A DNA stretch of 32,899 nt from the NCBI GenBank assembly GCA_020848515.1, contig JADLIA010000068.1, positions 1 to 32,899 of the forward strand, written 5' to 3'. Source of the stretch: Rubrivivax sp. (lineage in GTDB: Bacteria; Pseudomonadota; Gammaproteobacteria; Burkholderiales; Burkholderiaceae_C). The notes under the pieces were generated by a model. The model saw only the letters and a list, made by a program, of their open reading frames with translations. It had not been told where the DNA came from and ran no database searches. How positions within the stretch are numbered: the first letter of the stretch is position 1; each line of letters starts with the position of its first letter. Both the position numbers and the translations under genes were made by a program. This document shows positions 23,143 through 31,028 of this stretch, piece by piece.

Positions 23143-25815
23143 TCAGAGACGCAGGCCCAGCGCCACCACGGTGCTGGCCGGCTTGGCGCGCCGCGGCTTG
23201 CGCGCGCTGGCGCCCGGGCGCGGCGCCGCAGGCGAGGGGGCTGCTTCAGCCACGCGCTGCTGGATATGGGCCAGCGCCTCTTCCACCTGGTCGATCAGGA
23301 TCAGGCACAGACCGCCAGGCTGGAGTCGGCCCAGCGCGCGGTCGATGGCCTTGAATTCGCCACGGATTTCCTCCACGTGCCGGGTGCGTGTGGCGCCTTC
23401 CAGACCCTGGCGCAGCAGCGCCAGCACCTCGCCGTCCTGCCGGCCACGCTGGCAGGCGTCCTGGTAGAGGATGACGTCGTCAAAGGCGGCCCCCAGCAGG
23501 CGGGTCTGACCGCGGATGTCTTCGTCGCGGCGATCGCCTGCGCCGCTGATCACCACCGAGCGGCGGCTGGCCGGCATGTTCTGCACGCCGGCCACCAGGG
23601 CAGCGATGGCGTCCGGGTTGTGGCCGTAGTCGGCGATCAGGGTGGCGCCGCGGTAGTCGAACACGTTGAAGCGGCCGGGCACACCGTGCAGGTCGCTGAT
23701 GAAGCTCGCCAGGCCTTTCTGGATGGCGTCCCAGGACACACCCAGCGCCCAGGCCGCCGCCACCGAGGCCATGCAGTTTTCGACCTGGAAGCCGATCTGC
23801 CCCTTGCGGGTCAGCGGCACACGCGACAAGGGCAGGCGGCGCAGGCTGTCGCCTTCGGCGCAGACGATGTCGCCGCGGTCGACGAACACCACCCGCTTGC
23901 CCTGGGCCCGGTGCGTGGCGATGACCGGGTGGTGGCCGTCCAGGGCAAAGTAGGTCACCTGACCGGGGCAGTGCGGCGCCATCGCCACCACCGCCGGGTC
24001 GGCGGCGTTGAGCACCGCGGTGCCGGTGGGCGCGACGTTGAGCACGATCACGCGCTTGAGCACCTTCAGGTCTTCCAGCGTGGTGATGTAGTTCAGGCCC
24101 AGGTGATCGCCGCCGCCCAGGTTGGTGACGATGGCGACGTCGCACTGATCGAAGGCCAGGCCTTCGCGCAGCATGCCGCCGCGCGCGGTTTCCAGCACGG
24201 CGGCATCGACATCGGGGTGGGCCAGCACGTTGCGCGCGCTGCGCGGTCCGGAGCAGTCGCCGGAGTCGATCTGCCGGCCATTGACGTAGACGCCGTCGGT
24301 GTTGGTCATGCCCACCCGCAGACCGCTGGTCTTGAGCAGGTGCGCGGCCAGGCGCACGGTGGTGGTCTTGCCGTTGGTGCCGGTGACGGCGATCACCGGG
24401 ATGCGGCCATTGCCACCGTCAGGGAACATGTGGTCGATCACCGCCTGGCCGACGTCGCGGCCCTTGCCGTAGGACGGGCTCAGGTGCATGCGCAGGCCGG
24501 GCGCGGCGTTGACTTCGACGATGCCGCCGTTCTGCTCTTCCAGTGGCTTGATGACCGTCTCGCACACCACGTCGACGCCGCAGATGTCCAGGCCCACGGT
24601 CTGTGCGGCCTCGATGGCCCGCGCCGCCACCAGGGGGTGGACGCTGTCGGTCACGTCGGTGGCGGTGCCGCCGGTGGACAGGTTGGCGTTGTTGCGCATC
24701 ACCACGCGCTGACCTTTGGTGGGCACGCTGTCGGGCGTCAGGCCCTGGGCCGCCAGGCGAGCCTCGGCGATGGCGTCGATGCGGATCCTGGTCAGCGAGG
24801 TGCCGTGACCTTCGCCACGGCGCGGATCCTTGTTGACTTCGGCCACCAGTTCGCGCACCGTGTGTTCACCGTCACCGACCACCAGCGGCGGCTCGCGGCG
24901 CGCTGCCGCCACCAACTGGTTGCCTACCACCAGCAGCCGGAAATCATGGCCGGGCAGAAAGCGCTCGACCATCACCGTGCCGTACTGGGCCGCGGCCTGG
25001 TAGGCGATGTCGAAGTGCTCGCGATCAAGGATGCCGACGGTCACTCCCTTGCCCTGGTTGCCATCCTGGGGTTTGACCACCACCGGCAGGCCGATCTCCT
25101 GCGCGGCTGCCCAGGCGTCCTGCAGATCGCTGACCGGGCGGCCCAGGGGCACGGGCACGCCGGCGGCGTGCAGCAGCTTTTTGGTCAGGTCCTTGTCCTG
25201 GGCAATCGATTCGGCAATCGCGCTGGTGCCGTCGACTTCGGCCGCCTGGATGCGCCGCTGGCGACTGCCCCAGCCCAGCTGCACCAGACTGCCGCGCGTC
25301 AGCCGCTTGAACGGGATGCCACGCCGCACGGCGGCGTCGACGATGGCGCCGGTCGAAGGGCCCAGGCGCTCGTCTTCGTCGAGTTCGCGCAGTTCGGCCA
25401 GGGCGGCGCCGACATCGAACTGGCCGCCTTCAGCTGCGGCGCGGCACAGCAGCTGGGCCTTGTCGAAGGCCAGGCGGCCCACGGCTTCTTCGGTGTACTG
25501 GACGGCAACCTGGTACGTGCCTTCGATTTCGGTCGGTGTGGTGCGGCTGAACGTGACCGGGCAACCCGCCTGAGCCTGCAGGGCCAGGGTCACCAGCTCC
25601 AGCGCGTGGGCCATGGACAGGGGCGTGCTGGGCGCCGCGGGCTGGTTGACCTGAAGCGTGCCTACATGGGGAAACAGCTCACGCAGGCGTTGTTCGAAGG
25701 TGGGCTGTTGGTGCAGGTCGCGCTCGGCTGCGTCGCAGGTGACCACGGCCTCGATGGCCGTGTGGCGGCTCCACAGGTTGGGGCCGCGCAGCGCGCGAAT
25801 GCGGGTGATTTCCAT
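23143..25815 (-). CDS. cphA: Cyanophycin synthetase CphA
   Basis: An 890-residue two-ligase enzyme that builds cyanophycin, the poly-aspartate backbone with arginine side chains used as a nitrogen and carbon store. The N domain spans about 1-160 (starting MEITRIRALRGPNLWSRHTA). The ATP-grasp domain that adds Asp spans about 210-470 (PVVVKPQDGNQGKGVTV, EVNAAPGLRMHLSPSYG). The Mur-ligase-like part that adds Arg starts with an intact P-loop GTNGKTTT at 479-486, followed by ARGGMLREGLAFDQCDVAIV and a full C-terminal domain (GVPGRFNVFDYRG, ADYGHNPDAIAAL). The HxxEHxxxE motif that makes primers in some cyanobacterial enzymes is not intact here (HALELVTLA), so it is predicted to need primer. It lies 50 bases after CphA' in the same operon. 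Confidence 0.96.
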   Translation of the reverse strand: MEITRIRALRGPNLWSRHTAIEAVVTCDAAERDLHQQPTFEQRLRELFPHVGTLQVNQPAAPSTPLSMAHALELVTLALQAQAGCPVTFSRTTPTEIEGTYQVAVQYTEEAVGRLAFDKAQLLCRAAAEGGQFDVGAALAELRELDEDERLGPSTGAIVDAAVRRGIPFKRLTRGSLVQLGWGSRQRRIQAAEVDGTSAIAESIAQDKDLTKKLLHAAGVPVPLGRPVSDLQDAWAAAQEIGLPVVVKPQDGNQGKGVTVGILDREHFDIAYQAAAQYGTVMVERFLPGHDFRLLVVGNQLVAAARREPPLVVGDGEHTVRELVAEVNKDPRRGEGHGTSLTRIRIDAIAEARLAAQGLTPDSVPTKGQRVVMRNNANLSTGGTATDVTDSVHPLVAARAIEAAQTVGLDICGVDVVCETVIKPLEEQNGGIVEVNAAPGLRMHLSPSYGKGRDVGQAVIDHMFPDGGNGRIPVIAVTGTNGKTTTVRLAAHLLKTSGLRVGMTNTDGVYVNGRQIDSGDCSGPRSARNVLAHPDVDAAVLETARGGMLREGLAFDQCDVAIVTNLGGGDHLGLNYITTLEDLKVLKRVIVLNVAPTGTAVLNAADPAVVAMAPHCPGQVTYFALDGHHPVIATHRAQGKRVVFVDRGDIVCAEGDSLRRLPLSRVPLTRKGQIGFQVENCMASVAAAWALGVSWDAIQKGLASFISDLHGVPGRFNVFDYRGATLIADYGHNPDAIAALVAGVQNMPASRRSVVISGAGDRRDEDIRGQTRLLGAAFDDVILYQDACQRGRQDGEVLALLRQGLEGATRTRHVEEIRGEFKAIDRALGRLQPGGLCLILIDQVEEALAHIQQRVAEAAPSPAAPRPGASARKPRRAKPASTVVALGLRL

Positions 25816-25865: not shown

Positions 25866-28163
25866 TCAGTGGACAGCGCCGGCCGGTGCCGCTTCACAAA
25901 AGTGCAACAAACCGGCACGGATCAGCTCCACCGGCACGCCCAGCGACCAGGCCGTGGCGACGGCCGCCAGCACATGCGGGCGCACGTCGGCCGGCGGTTC
26001 CTGGGCGATGGCGGAAAACTCGGGCGCCGACAGGTTGACCAGCGCAAACTCCTCCGGGCCTTGCGCCAGCACGATGCGATCGCCGCGGGCCAGGGCGACG
26101 CGGCCCTTGCGCGCGCGGTGCGCCTTCAAGGCCGGGCTCTGCGGGTCGAGGCTGTAGAGCAGCACTTCGCCGTCGGCGTAGTCGGCCAGCGCCAGCACTT
26201 CGGCGTCGTCGGCGTTCAGCACCGCCGCCCCTTCGGGCAGCACCACGTCGACCTGGGTGCGCACGATGTTGGGCATCTGGTCGGCCTCGGTGATGTACAG
26301 ATCCTCCAGGCCCTGCGGCCCGGGCATGCACATGACCACACCGACCTGGCAGCGGTCGTAGGGCAGGCCTTCGGTCAGGATGTGGCGCGGCGAGGTTTCG
26401 AACACGGCGGCCTGCACCGTGCGGTTGATGAGCATCCGCTCACCGATGTCGTAGCCCAGCGCACCGCCGCTCGCCAGCCGGCGCTGGCCGAGGAACAGGC
26501 CATCTCGGCAGCCCAGTGCCGTCTGCAGGCCGTGCAACTGCATCAGGGCGGCGGTCAGGCGCGCCGCCAGCGCGCTTTCGCCGTCGCCGATGATGCCGAC
26601 GATCGGAATGCGCCCGCTGGCTCCGGCGGGGAACAGATGGTTGACGATGGCGTCGCCCACCGGCTGGGCGCGGCCGATGGCCGGTTTGAGGTGCATCAGC
26701 AGGCCGGGCCCGGCGTTGACTTCGACGATCGCGCCGCCCTGCGGAATCAGCGGCTGGCCGATGTCTTCGGCCACCAGGTCGATGCCGGCGATGTCCAGCC
26801 CGACCACGCGGGTGGCCATTGCCACCAGCTCGGCCACGTCGGGGTGCACCTGCCCGGTGACGTCGATCGACATGTTGCCGGTGCGCTGCACCTCCGCCGA
26901 TTCGCCGCGCGGCAGCACGCTGTCGATGCCCAGGCCCTGGCGCTCCAGCAGCAGCAGCAGCACCGGGTCGTCGTGGCGCAGGGTTTCCAGCGGCAGATGT
27001 TCTTCGACGCCGCGCCGCGGGTCGGTGTTGACGTGGGCGTCGATGAGCTGGCCGATGCTGGAGCGACCATCTCCGCTGACGCGGATGATTTCGCCACGCG
27101 TGGCCGCCACCACCTTGCCACCGACCACCAGCAGCCGGTGCTCCTGGCCGGGAATGAAGCGCTCGACGATCACTTCGGAGCCTTCCTGTTCGGCGGCGGC
27201 GAAGGCGCGCACGACCTCGTCGCGTGTCTTGAGGTTCAGCGACACGCCGCGCGCATGGTTGCCGTCCGACGGCTTGACGGCCACGGGCAGGCCGATGTCC
27301 TCGGCGGCGTCCCAGGCGTCGTCGGCACTGCTGACGGTGCGGCCCTCGGGCACCGGCACGCCGGCGGCCGCCAGCAGCTGCTTGGTCAGGTCCTTGTCGC
27401 TCGCAATGCCTTCGGCGATGGCGCTGGTGCGGTCGGTTTCGGCGGTCCAGATGCGGTGTTGCGCGGCGCCGTGGCCGAGCTGCACCAGGTTGCCGTCGTT
27501 GAGCCGGATGTTGGGAATGCCGCGTTCCACCGCGGCGTCGACGATGCAGGCCGTGCTGGGCCCCAGGCACTGGCGATCGACCATCTCGGTCAGTCGGGCG
27601 ATGGTGGCGGCGACGTCGTAGGGGCGGTCGTTGATGGCCGCCATCACCAGATCGCGCGCCGAGGTGATGGCCAGCCTGCCGACGGCTTCGTGACGGGTGC
27701 GGATGACCACCTTGTAGACGCCACGCTCGTGCGTCATGCGGGCCTTGCCGAAGCCGGTCTTCATGCCGGCCTGGGTCTGCAGTTCGAGCGCCACGTGCTC
27801 CAGGATGTGGCCCGGCCAGGTGCCGTCGCGCAGGCGCATCAGAAAGCCCCCGCGACGGCCGACGCTGCAGCGGTGCTCGATCAGACCGGGCAGCCAGGCC
27901 GTCAGGCGGTCGTAAAAGCCGGGCAGGGTGTTGGAGGGGAAGTCTTCCAGTTCGCCGATGTCGACGATGGCCTCGATCACCGCGCGGTAGGTCCAGATGT
28001 TGGGGCCGCGCAGATGCGCCATGCGGCGGATGATGATGTCGGCGAACTGGCGATCGGGCGGTGCGGCCGACGCCGGCGCCAGTTCGGCGGCGGCTTGTGG
28101 GGCGCGGACATACAATCCGCCACCGTTTGCCGAGCCGTGTTCGTGTTGATCGATTCGCCTCAT
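25866..28163 (-). CDS. CphA-like paralogue (CphA'), Mur-ligase half degenerate
   Basis: About 765 residues, related to CphA over most of its length. The N domain is close to the cyanobacterial form: LRGPNIWTYR, NTLPGFYDRL and GTWPGHILEHVALELQ with the HxxEHxxxE motif at 119-127. The ATP-grasp half is kept (PVAVKPSDGNHARGVSL, EVNAGPGLLMHLKPA), although the loop matching CphA LSTGGTATDV is shortened. The Mur-ligase P-loop is replaced by GIIGDGES (523-530), and the protein ends where the C-terminal Mur domain would begin. The Arg-adding reaction should be lost. The layout recalls cyanobacterial CphA2, which polymerises beta-Asp-Arg dipeptides with one ATP site. The ORF track starts at 28376 inside the divergent gene. 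ATG 28163 is the longest start that clears it; Met48 (28022) is possible. The reading frame is intact, so it is not a decaying pseudogene. Confidence 0.9.
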   Translation of the reverse strand: MRRIDQHEHGSANGGGLYVRAPQAAAELAPASAAPPDRQFADIIIRRMAHLRGPNIWTYRAVIEAIVDIGELEDFPSNTLPGFYDRLTAWLPGLIEHRCSVGRRGGFLMRLRDGTWPGHILEHVALELQTQAGMKTGFGKARMTHERGVYKVVIRTRHEAVGRLAITSARDLVMAAINDRPYDVAATIARLTEMVDRQCLGPSTACIVDAAVERGIPNIRLNDGNLVQLGHGAAQHRIWTAETDRTSAIAEGIASDKDLTKQLLAAAGVPVPEGRTVSSADDAWDAAEDIGLPVAVKPSDGNHARGVSLNLKTRDEVVRAFAAAEQEGSEVIVERFIPGQEHRLLVVGGKVVAATRGEIIRVSGDGRSSIGQLIDAHVNTDPRRGVEEHLPLETLRHDDPVLLLLLERQGLGIDSVLPRGESAEVQRTGNMSIDVTGQVHPDVAELVAMATRVVGLDIAGIDLVAEDIGQPLIPQGGAIVEVNAGPGLLMHLKPAIGRAQPVGDAIVNHLFPAGASGRIPIVGIIGDGESALAARLTAALMQLHGLQTALGCRDGLFLGQRRLASGGALGYDIGERMLINRTVQAAVFETSPRHILTEGLPYDRCQVGVVMCMPGPQGLEDLYITEADQMPNIVRTQVDVVLPEGAAVLNADDAEVLALADYADGEVLLYSLDPQSPALKAHRARKGRVALARGDRIVLAQGPEEFALVNLSAPEFSAIAQEPPADVRPHVLAAVATAWSLGVPVELIRAGLLHFCEAAPAGAVH

Positions 28164-28212
28164 GGGGCCCTGCGCTCGCTTTCCGTGTTTCGTTGCTGTC
28201 TGAAGGGCTGCC
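28164..28212. promoter_or_regulatory. Divergent region, CphA' / ABC exporter
   Basis: Only 49 bases separate the two start codons. AAGGG at 28203-28207 serves the plus-strand TTG start. A TACAAT -10-like hexamer at 28111-28116 on the plus strand lies inside the start of CphA', so the exporter transcript may begin within the CphA' gene. No clear hexamers are seen for the minus strand. Confidence 0.4.
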
Positions 28213-30561
28213 TTGCCGGAACCCACGTCGTCCGATCCCCGCCTGGCCATGCCGGCGGGTGACCCCGCGCCTGCCATCGAAGAGGCGCCACCCCTGCGAC
28301 CCACAGAAAACGTGCTGGGCTCGCTGGACGTTGACCTGACGCGCCAGCTGCGCTTTGGGCGCGGGGTGATTCTCATTACAGATCAACGGCTTGTCACGCG
28401 GTTTCCGGATGCAACCGGCTGGCAGGCCTGGGACTTGCACCCCGGGCTGTCGCTGGCGCACCACGACCACGCCGGGGTGGGCACGCTGGAGCTGCACGAC
28501 GCGCAGGGAAGGCTGGCGGTCTGGCGCTACACCCTGGGGCACAACCCGGCGGCGCTGCGCCTGCTGGGGCAGTTCGAGCGCGCCCGTGAGGCGCTGGCCG
28601 GCGGCGCGCCGTCGGCCAGCGAGGACGTCGCCCCGGCCGACCAGGCCGAGGATGAAGAGGGCGTGCCCGACCAGCCGCCGTCCACCTGGACCCTGCTGCG
28701 CCTGTGGCGCTTTGCCAGGCCCTACCAGTGGCAGCTGCTGGCCGGTTTCGTGCTGATGCTGGCGGCCACCGCCGCCACCCTGGTGCCGCCCTACCTGACC
28801 ATGCCGCTGATGGACAAGGTGCTGATCCCGTTCCAGAGCGGCCAGCAGATCGACACCGGCTACGTCGCGCTGCTGCTGACCGGCCTGCTGGGGTCGGCCT
28901 TGCTGGCGTGGGGCCTGGGCTGGGCCAAGACCTACATCCTGGCGCTGGTGTCCGAGCGCATCGGTGCCGACCTGCGGACAATCACTTACGAACACCTGCT
29001 CAAACTTTCACTTGAATATTTCGGTGGCCGGCGCACGGGAGACCTGATGGCGCGCATCGGTTCGGAAACCGACCGCATCAACATTTTTCTGTCGCTGCAC
29101 CTGCTGGACTTCGCCACCGACGTGCTGATGATCGCCATGACGGCGGCGATCCTGTTTTCCATCGACCCGACGCTGGCGCTGGTGACCCTGGTGCCGCTGC
29201 CGATCATTGCGTGGCTGATCCACGTGGTGCGCGACCGCCTGCGCACCGGCTTCGAGAAGATCGACCGCGTCTGGTCGGAAGTCACCAACGTGCTGGCCGA
29301 CACCATTCCGGGTATCCGCGTGGTCAAGGCCTTCGCCCAGGAAGACCGCGAAGCGAGTCGCTTTCGCGATGCCAACCGCCACAACCTGGCCGTCAACGAC
29401 CGCCTGAACCGCCTGTGGTCGCTGTTTTCGCCCACCGTCACGTTGCTGACCGAAATCGGGCTGCTGATCGTCTGGGCCGCCGGCATCTGGCTGGTCAGCC
29501 AGCAGCGCGTCACGGTGGGGGTGCTGACGGCGTTTCTGGCTTACATCGGGCGCTTCTACACCCGGCTCGATTCGATGAGCCGCATCGTCTCGGTGACGCA
29601 GAAGGCGGCCTCGGCCACCAAGCGCATCTTTGAAATCCTCGACCATGTCTCCAGCGTGCCGGAGCCGAAAAACCCCGTGCCGCTGCCACGCGTGCAGGGC
29701 CGCATCGACATCCGCAGTGCGGCGCTGCGCTACGGCAACCGCTCGGTGCTGCGCGGCCTGGACCTGCACATCGAACCGGGTCAGATGATCGGCCTGGTGG
29801 GCCACAGCGGCTCCGGCAAGAGCACGCTGGTGAACCTGATCTGCCGCTTCTATGACGTGAGCGAGGGCGCCATCGAAGTCGATGGCGTGGACCTGCGGCA
29901 GGTGCGGGTGGCCGACTGGCGCCGCCACATCGGCCTGGTGCTGCAGGAGCCCTACCTGTTTTTCGGCACCATCGCCGAGAACATCGCCTACGGCAAGCCC
30001 GACGCCACGCGCGAGGAGATCGTGGCCGCCGCGCGCGCCGCCCACGCGCACGAGTTCATCCTGCGGCTGCCGCAGGGCTACGACTCGCTGGTGGGCGAGC
30101 GCGGCCAGGGGCTGTCGGGCGGCGAGCGCCAGCGCATCAGCATCGCCCGCGCGCTGCTGATCGACCCCAAGATCCTGATCCTGGATGAGGCCACGGCCTC
30201 GGTCGACACCGAAACCGAACGCGAGATCCAGAAGGCGCTGGACAACCTGGTGCGTGGGCGCACGACGATTGCCATCGCGCACCGCCTGTCCACGCTGCGC
30301 AAGGCCGACCGGCTGGTGGTGATGGACAAGGGCGTGAAGGTCGAGGAGGGCACGCACGAAGTGCTGCTGGGGCGCCGCGGCGCCTACTGGCGCCTGTACG
30401 AGGCGCAGGCGCGGCAGGAGAAGGCCGAGCGCGAGCGCATGCTGGTGGTCGACGATGCCGTGCTGGCCGGTGAGCCGACGGCGGTGCCCGCCATTGCCAC
30501 GCCGACGCACCGCGGCGACGTCAGCACGGCCGAGGCCCGGCGCCAGGAGTCCCAGCCATGA
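28213..30561 (+). CDS. ABC exporter associated with cyanophycin genes, with an N-terminal extra domain
   Basis: A 782-residue fused half-transporter of the ABCB/exporter type in the inner membrane. Residues about 30-130 form an extra soluble domain (GRGVILITDQRLVTRF, HAGVGTLELHDAQGRLAVW) that reads like a small beta-sandwich of bacterial PH type. Six membrane helices follow from about 165 to 440. The ATPase domain has Walker A GHSGSGKST, signature LSGGERQ (634-640), Walker B ILILDEAT and H-loop AHRLS, all intact. I recall that such proteins are named cyanophycin metabolism-associated ABC transporters from gene context; substrate and direction are unknown. TTG 28213 has AAGGG at good spacing; ATG 28249 has no ribosome site. 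It overlaps the DUF1854 gene by ATGA. Confidence 0.92.
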   Translation: MPEPTSSDPRLAMPAGDPAPAIEEAPPLRPTENVLGSLDVDLTRQLRFGRGVILITDQRLVTRFPDATGWQAWDLHPGLSLAHHDHAGVGTLELHDAQGRLAVWRYTLGHNPAALRLLGQFERAREALAGGAPSASEDVAPADQAEDEEGVPDQPPSTWTLLRLWRFARPYQWQLLAGFVLMLAATAATLVPPYLTMPLMDKVLIPFQSGQQIDTGYVALLLTGLLGSALLAWGLGWAKTYILALVSERIGADLRTITYEHLLKLSLEYFGGRRTGDLMARIGSETDRINIFLSLHLLDFATDVLMIAMTAAILFSIDPTLALVTLVPLPIIAWLIHVVRDRLRTGFEKIDRVWSEVTNVLADTIPGIRVVKAFAQEDREASRFRDANRHNLAVNDRLNRLWSLFSPTVTLLTEIGLLIVWAAGIWLVSQQRVTVGVLTAFLAYIGRFYTRLDSMSRIVSVTQKAASATKRIFEILDHVSSVPEPKNPVPLPRVQGRIDIRSAALRYGNRSVLRGLDLHIEPGQMIGLVGHSGSGKSTLVNLICRFYDVSEGAIEVDGVDLRQVRVADWRRHIGLVLQEPYLFFGTIAENIAYGKPDATREEIVAAARAAHAHEFILRLPQGYDSLVGERGQGLSGGERQRISIARALLIDPKILILDEATASVDTETEREIQKALDNLVRGRTTIAIAHRLSTLRKADRLVVMDKGVKVEEGTHEVLLGRRGAYWRLYEAQARQEKAERERMLVVDDAVLAGEPTAVPAIATPTHRGDVSTAEARRQESQP

Positions 30562-31028
30562 GCGCGCCCGACTTCGATCTGCAGCGCGACGCCTTCGGTC
30601 GCCTGGTGCTGACCGACGCCCAGGGGCATGCGCATGTCGGCGTGGCGGCCGTGCGGGCGTTTCCGATCGGTGCGCCCGACGAAGGGATCAGCCTGGTCGA
30701 TGGCGACGGTCATGAACTGGCCTGGGTGCCGCGGCTCGGCGCATTGGACGAGGACCGTCGCGCCCTGCTGGTCGAGGCGCTGGAGCAGCGCGAGTTCATG
30801 CCGCGTCTGCTGCGCGTGAGGGGCGTGAGCAGTTTCGTGACGCCGAGCACCTGGGAGGTCGACACCGACCGCGGTCCGACCCGCTTCGTGCTCAAGGGTG
30901 AGGAAGACATCCGCCGTCTCGGGCCCGGCCTGCTGATCGTCAACGACGCCCATGGCGTGCAGTACCTGATCCAGGATCTGATGGCCATGGACCGCCACAG
31001 CCGGAAGTTGCTCGACCGCTTCCTCTGA
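30558..31028 (+). CDS. DUF1854 family protein associated with cyanophycin genes
   Basis: A 156-residue soluble protein of the DUF1854 family. It begins MSAPDFDLQRDAFGRLVLTD and holds GVAAVRAFPIGAPDEGISLV, a central VSSFVTPSTWEVDTDRGPTRF and the C-terminal LLIVNDAHGVQYLIQDLMAMD. No signal peptide, membrane helix or known catalytic motif is seen. The start overlaps the exporter stop (ATGA), so the two are translationally coupled and probably form a complex. Family members occur beside cyanophycin synthetase genes, but no function has been shown to my knowledge. It could be a regulatory or coupling subunit of the exporter; that is inference. Confidence 0.9.
   Translation: MSAPDFDLQRDAFGRLVLTDAQGHAHVGVAAVRAFPIGAPDEGISLVDGDGHELAWVPRLGALDEDRRALLVEALEQREFMPRLLRVRGVSSFVTPSTWEVDTDRGPTRFVLKGEEDIRRLGPGLLIVNDAHGVQYLIQDLMAMDRHSRKLLDRFL

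Follow-up and report, generated by a model that had tools for sequence, protein, structure and literature searches.

The tandem cphA' and cphA genes of the Burkholderiales encode two cyanophycin synthetase homologues with complementary active sites: common to all CphA' proteins is the loss of the aspartate pocket together with a kept N-domain peptidase site, and the partner CphA proteins show the reciprocal loss. From this pattern we propose, with a probability of about two in three, that CphA' is a primer-making peptidase for a primer-dependent CphA. A wider statement has in our view an even chance of being right: in a widespread lineage of cyanophycin producers, a template-independent polymerase with three sites would have been divided, CphA being left as the elongase and CphA' as a dedicated primer-making peptidase that would also replace a seemingly missing cyanophycinase.

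In the window, the whole 32,899-nucleotide stretch of Rubrivivax sp. DNA that was analysed, cphA' (25866..28163, minus strand) encodes an N domain, an ATP-grasp G domain and the remnant of a Mur-like M core, without the C-terminal Mur domain. It occupies a single open frame (28376..25866, minus strand) with no internal stops, in agreement with an earlier note on this DNA that had described the frame as intact. The frame offers three start candidates, ATG 28022 (718 aa), ATG 28163 (765 aa) and ATG 28376, of which ATG 28163, also the choice of the earlier note, is the probable start and takes in a first strand, IIIRR, ahead of LRGPN. The partner gene cphA (23143..25815, minus strand) lies 50 bases downstream and encodes intact G and M domains and an N domain that has lost its peptidase site. 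Divergent from cphA' are genes for a cyanophycin metabolism-associated ABC transporter (28213..30561, plus strand; NCBIfam NF052233) and a cyanophycin metabolism-associated DUF1854 protein (30558..31028, plus strand; NCBIfam NF052234). The transporter is MsbA-like, and its gene start adjoins cphA' in 82 of 88 loci.

The window CphA' aligns with NCBIfam NF010623 over model positions 2-716 of 871 and falls below the equivalog cut-off of TIGR02068 (672 versus 850 bits). Pfam matches both Mur_ligase_M and Mur_ligase_C in the window CphA, the latter from residue 714, and neither was found in the window CphA', whose end aligns with CphA residues 705-709. This agrees with the earlier placement of the stop point at the start of the last Mur domain of CphA, although the terminal letters are IRAGLLHFCEAAPAGAVH and not LRAGLL as first read. 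The reported loss of the Mur P-loop also stands: CphA' has GIIGDGES, within the degenerate motif GIIGDGESA (26571..26597, minus strand), in place of GTNGKTTT in CphA (24358-24381, minus strand). The catalytic D-H pair (D585/H586 in SuCphA1) is likewise gone, the sequence there being PGPQGLE. With P-loop, catalytic DH and C-terminal Mur domain all missing, no active site can be recognised in the arginine-adding half, which is predicted to be inactive, as the earlier note had argued.

Published active sites were mapped, in SuCphA1 numbering, onto an extracted set of 88 CphA' and 87 partner CphA proteins. Residues H57, C59, R70, H79, E82 and H83 form the N-domain endo-cyanophycinase site, which has been shown to make primers (PMC9262961), and Arg323, Ser396 and Arg458 recognise Asp (PMC9427784). 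All six peptidase-site residues are present in 88 of 88 CphA'; none of the 87 partners has a complete N-domain site, and His57, Cys59 and Arg70 are each kept in 0/87. Conversely, the three Asp-recognising residues are lost in every CphA' (88/88) and present in every partner (87/87), as are the M-site residues K499, D585 and H586 (87/87 partners). A further residue of the Asp pocket, Asn394, is ambiguous in the alignment and so was not scored as lost in CphA', where the N of GNM/GNV may correspond to it.

The window proteins illustrate both halves of this exchange. The kept Cx19HxxEH motif of CphA' (HRC ... HILEH; 27795..27875, minus strand; motif as defined in PMC9262961) reads C52...H72ILEH76 in P0001 numbering. 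Arg309 is present in EHRLLV and the pocket residue Arg323 is replaced by Gly in TRGEII (27084..27143, minus strand), and the G-omega large loop is shortened to RTGNM-----SID (26862..26888, minus strand), with five residues gone including Ser396 (roles in PMC9427784). In EVNAGPGLLMH (26691..26723, minus strand) the EVN of the metal site is present and Arg458 has become Leu. In CphA, the lost N-domain site (QVNQPAAPSTPLSMAHALEL; 25594..25653, minus strand) is without His57, Cys59, Arg70 and His83, and the Asp-pocket loop NLSTGG (24667-24684), Arg458 (24484-24498) and the Mur P-loop are intact on the same strand.

Unpaired CphA1 keep all sites, both in 18 of 18 proteins from Proteobacteria and Deinococcus, taken from members of this order, from the wider class and from named plasmids, and in the 19 of 19 cyanobacterial ones in the tree. 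Exceptions without the N site are two extra copies in one genome (G055), one Chryseobacterium plasmid protein and a second cyanobacterial copy (L228). The G055 copies (L133; G055:C1:5338500-5346500) are divergent CphA1 with a degenerate N site and lie beside a cyanophycinase; their genome carries a cphA'-cphA pair as well. L228 (genome G526) is a second CphA1 without the N-domain peptidase motif.

In the G domain, Burkholderiales CphA' keep Lys220, Lys261, Arg309, Glu450, Asn452 and mostly His267 (in the window within the ATP loop DGNHARG; 27246..27269, minus strand), which suggests that the domain still binds ATP or carries out some other ligation. As a separate observation, position 267 is Gln in 80 of 87 partner CphA (window 25045-25068) and mostly His in CphA'; other CphA1 have a catalytically important His267, and Ala at this position inactivates SuCphA1. 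An AlphaFold model of CphA', based on the window proteins and cyanobacterial CphA1, had a mean pLDDT of 80 and a pTM of 0.71, and for it Foldseek returned CphA1 as the best match (7txv, E 2.5e-68) and CphA2 as a weaker one (7ta5, 4.9e-39). Residues 52-58, the loop around the metal-binding Cys, were predicted with low confidence, and the geometry of the site was therefore not judged from the model.

Among 250 sampled genomes of the Burkholderiales, 100 gave matches at E<=1e-30 and about 88 of those have CphA', with 47-63% identity to the window protein. The gene is nearly always directly upstream of cphA in this sample, and one apparently unpaired CphA' (G029) has the start of a CphA at the end of its contig. 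CphA'-CphA pairs also occur in a family (f137) of the same class outside the order. Sampling across the phylum revealed no CphA' in other classes; the single match beyond the class (G690) is CphA1-like and has the Asp loop, so it was rejected as a CphA'.

A FastTree tree built with the trait columns removed placed 87 CphA'; CphA2 were left out of the tree and compared by residues and fold. Clade support was 100 for CphA', 100 for the paired CphA and 99 for both together. Loss of the Asp site maps as a single change on the CphA' stem. Loss of the N site takes two changes, one on the stem of the paired CphA and the other in the group of the G055 copies and the Chryseobacterium protein. CphA' and CphA seem to descend from an ordinary cyanophycin synthetase with three sites, which was duplicated once and whose sites were then divided between the copies. 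The truncation has a different history, since 10 of the 87 CphA' are full length with P-loop and DH, and 14 truncated ones still match the P-loop consensus, which rules out loss of the P-loop and C-terminus as the defining feature of CphA'. As the full-length forms are scattered and include the first branch, the CphA' ancestor most likely had an M domain that was lost later. The number of independent C-terminal losses varies with branch support, from 10 on the best tree with regain disallowed, through 5-7 with weak branches collapsed, to 1 when only support >=95 is kept, so that repetition of this later, patchy loss is likely, though unproven.

The window CphA' is monophyletic with the other CphA', as well as lying upstream of CphA, and it groups with a protein from genome G229 inside a supported clade of 23. 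Intact homologues in close relatives had been named in the earlier note as a sign of recent decay; full-length forms do exist elsewhere in the order, but this clade of closest relatives is truncated throughout. Pairwise dN/dS values in CphA' were 0.02-0.22 for the N domain, 0.03-0.16 for the G domain and 0.04-0.29 for the M domain, and in most pairs of truncated proteins constraint was weakest on the M remnant. In partner CphA, the N domain evolves faster than the G domain in several pairs. These relatives and the dN/dS values rule out recent decay. Chance or error likewise does not explain the window protein, given that 77 of the 87 CphA' in the tree share its architecture and that dN/dS is well below 1; CphA', found in about one third of the sampled Burkholderiales genomes, is thus a conserved form. 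Domain conservation differs between groups: in the Burkholderiales the G and N domains are conserved to a similar degree (0.67 versus 0.65), and in family f137 the N domain is the most conserved (0.73 versus 0.58 and 0.60). The f137 proteins have lost His267 in 12 of 12 cases and kept Cx19HxxEH in 12 of 12, and in one of them (L257) about 60 residues of the G domain are missing in frame, a series suggesting that the N domain is the part CphA' cannot dispense with.

Genomes with the pair also seldom have a recognisable cyanophycinase. A cyanophycinase above the TIGR02069 cut-off was found in 5 of 69 pair genomes versus 11 of 11 genomes with unpaired CphA1 (Fisher p 4e-10, uncorrected for ancestry; the contrast follows clades). 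One of the five is G055, whose best cyanophycinase adjoins the extra CphA copies. The contrast agrees with the published scarcity of cyanophycinase in cphA-bearing beta-proteobacteria, of which only 2.8% of 903 genomes have a recognisable one (PMC10206079), and with Sideroxydans, which has two adjacent cphA homologues and is without cyanophycinase (PMC5178258). CphA' could be responsible for at least the initial, endo-acting step of breakdown.

In the division of labour that we propose, CphA would carry out elongation, its G domain adding Asp and its M domain adding Arg, and should need primers because its N-domain metallopeptidase site is lost. CphA' would cut long cyanophycin into short chains that CphA then extends. 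It would no longer add Asp, and addition of Arg would also be gone in most species, including that of the window. Polymer binding, and often ATP binding, has probably been retained in the G domain of CphA', and the M remnant is a probable support for the N domain; on its own, the N domain is insoluble because a hydrophobic loop packs on the M domain (PMC9262961), so that a catalytically dead M core may act as its platform. With cutting and building assigned to separate proteins, expression could set the ratio between them. In pair genomes, mostly without a recognisable cyanophycinase, CphA' may in addition begin mobilisation of the store. The role as primer maker is favoured by an experiment in trans, in which SuCphA1 inactivated at both its G site and its M site rendered the primer-dependent TmCphA1 primer-independent by means of its N domain (PMC9262961). 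Against a peptidase-only reading count the conserved G domain and kept ATP residues of Burkholderiales CphA', and for the ten full-length proteins a pure cutter role is incomplete since their M site is apparently intact.

The earlier note had likened CphA' to the reduced CphA2 of nitrogen-fixing cyanobacteria, and a convergent CphA2, whose G domain would use ATP to join beta-Asp-Arg dipeptides to the chain end, could account for an M half that is inactive and truncated, for purifying selection on the ATP site together with Arg309 and, in most proteins, His267, and for the removal of the Asp loop, which could free space for a bulkier nucleophile. However, nine CphA2 from a scan of cyanobacterial genomes show the reverse of CphA', since they are without the N-domain motif kept in all CphA' and retain the Arg323 and NLS[SA]GG lost in all of them. 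The predicted fold is closer to CphA1 than to CphA2 (Foldseek E 1e-68 versus 1e-39), the G domain decays in f137 though CphA' persists, and dipeptides presuppose a cyanophycinase that is missing from most pair genomes. The comparison as first drawn is not supported, and we regard a dipeptide ligase as rather unlikely. The evidence agrees with the second option of that note, a helper subunit for CphA, and this option is compatible with primer making, for which we likewise infer a physical interaction of the two proteins. As a full alternative, in which CphA' would have a structural or regulatory part in a hetero-oligomer with CphA and its N motif would serve metal binding or folding instead of cleavage, it draws on the strict linkage and co-occurrence and on the conservation of every remaining domain, the M remnant included. 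We consider this unlikely, because the invariant residues of CphA' extend beyond the metal ligands to catalytic Glu82 and the substrate-site residues His57 and Arg70, and these same residues vary freely in CphA.

That CphA' might be mainly a degradative cyanophycinase, and not a primer maker, would suit the scarcity of recognisable cyanophycinase, both as published (PMC10206079; PMC5178258) and as repeated in the genomes sampled here. In SuCphA1, however, cleavage by the N domain is slower than polymerisation by the enzyme and releases oligomers instead of dipeptides (PMC9262961), and degradation would leave unexplained why every partner CphA lost its own N site; we therefore see this as very unlikely. 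The missing P-loop, catalytic DH and C-terminal domain could finally be read as marks of a decaying pseudogene, a reading whose probability is negligible in view of a frame that is open in almost every homologue, of conserved linkage, of dN/dS values of 0.02-0.29 and of six peptidase-site residues that are invariant in 88 of 88.

By position and family, CphA' is the same gene as the second cphA of Ralstonia eutropha and other beta-proteobacteria. The R. eutropha CphA' was reportedly described by Adames et al. in 2013 as missing much of a 'J-loop'. The gene pair is already known, with two cphA homologues recorded in R. eutropha (PMC11362209) and an adjacent pair in Sideroxydans (PMC5178258), and our literature search found no proposal that divides primer-making and elongating activities between CphA' and CphA. 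CphA' shares fold, domain order and N-domain peptidase residues with CphA1 (SuCphA1, TeCphA1), about 80% of which have the Cx19HxxEH motif, but it is without the Asp pocket and mostly without the M active site, and its partner is without the N-domain site. Like CphA', CphA2 is reduced, has an inactive M domain and shares its genome with a CphA1; unlike CphA', it keeps the G-omega loop. The primer-dependent TmCphA1 resembles the partner CphA in having no N-domain motif, whereas a linked CphA' partner is not described for it in the literature examined. Unpaired CphA1 that adjoin a separate cyanophycinase and isoaspartyl dipeptidase, for example on Mesorhizobium and Deinococcus plasmids, are homologous synthetases with all three sites in one protein. 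Two further kinds of protein were observed: tandem pairs of distant CphA-like ATP-grasp proteins of 580-836 aa that share about 32% identity with the G domain of CphA (L124, G208:C28; L125, G026:C4; L123, G139:C1), and a Mur-ligase family protein of about 580-720 aa where complete, which resembles only the CphA M domain (L127, L129-L132, L224-L227, L272) and in several genomes adjoins unpaired CphA1.

It was suggested in 2022 that CphA1 without the N site primes from leftover strands; for the paired lineage, a linked primer maker would be the simpler reading. Work from 2022 also pointed out that expression levels cannot adjust cutting against building when one enzyme has both activities. A natural split would permit that balance and could help polymer production. 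It would also suggest why a lone beta-proteobacterial CphA may perform poorly, and it offers in CphA' a candidate for the cyanophycinase missing from the genomes of PMC10206079 and PMC5178258. The proposal gives the second beta-proteobacterial cphA gene a specific, testable role.
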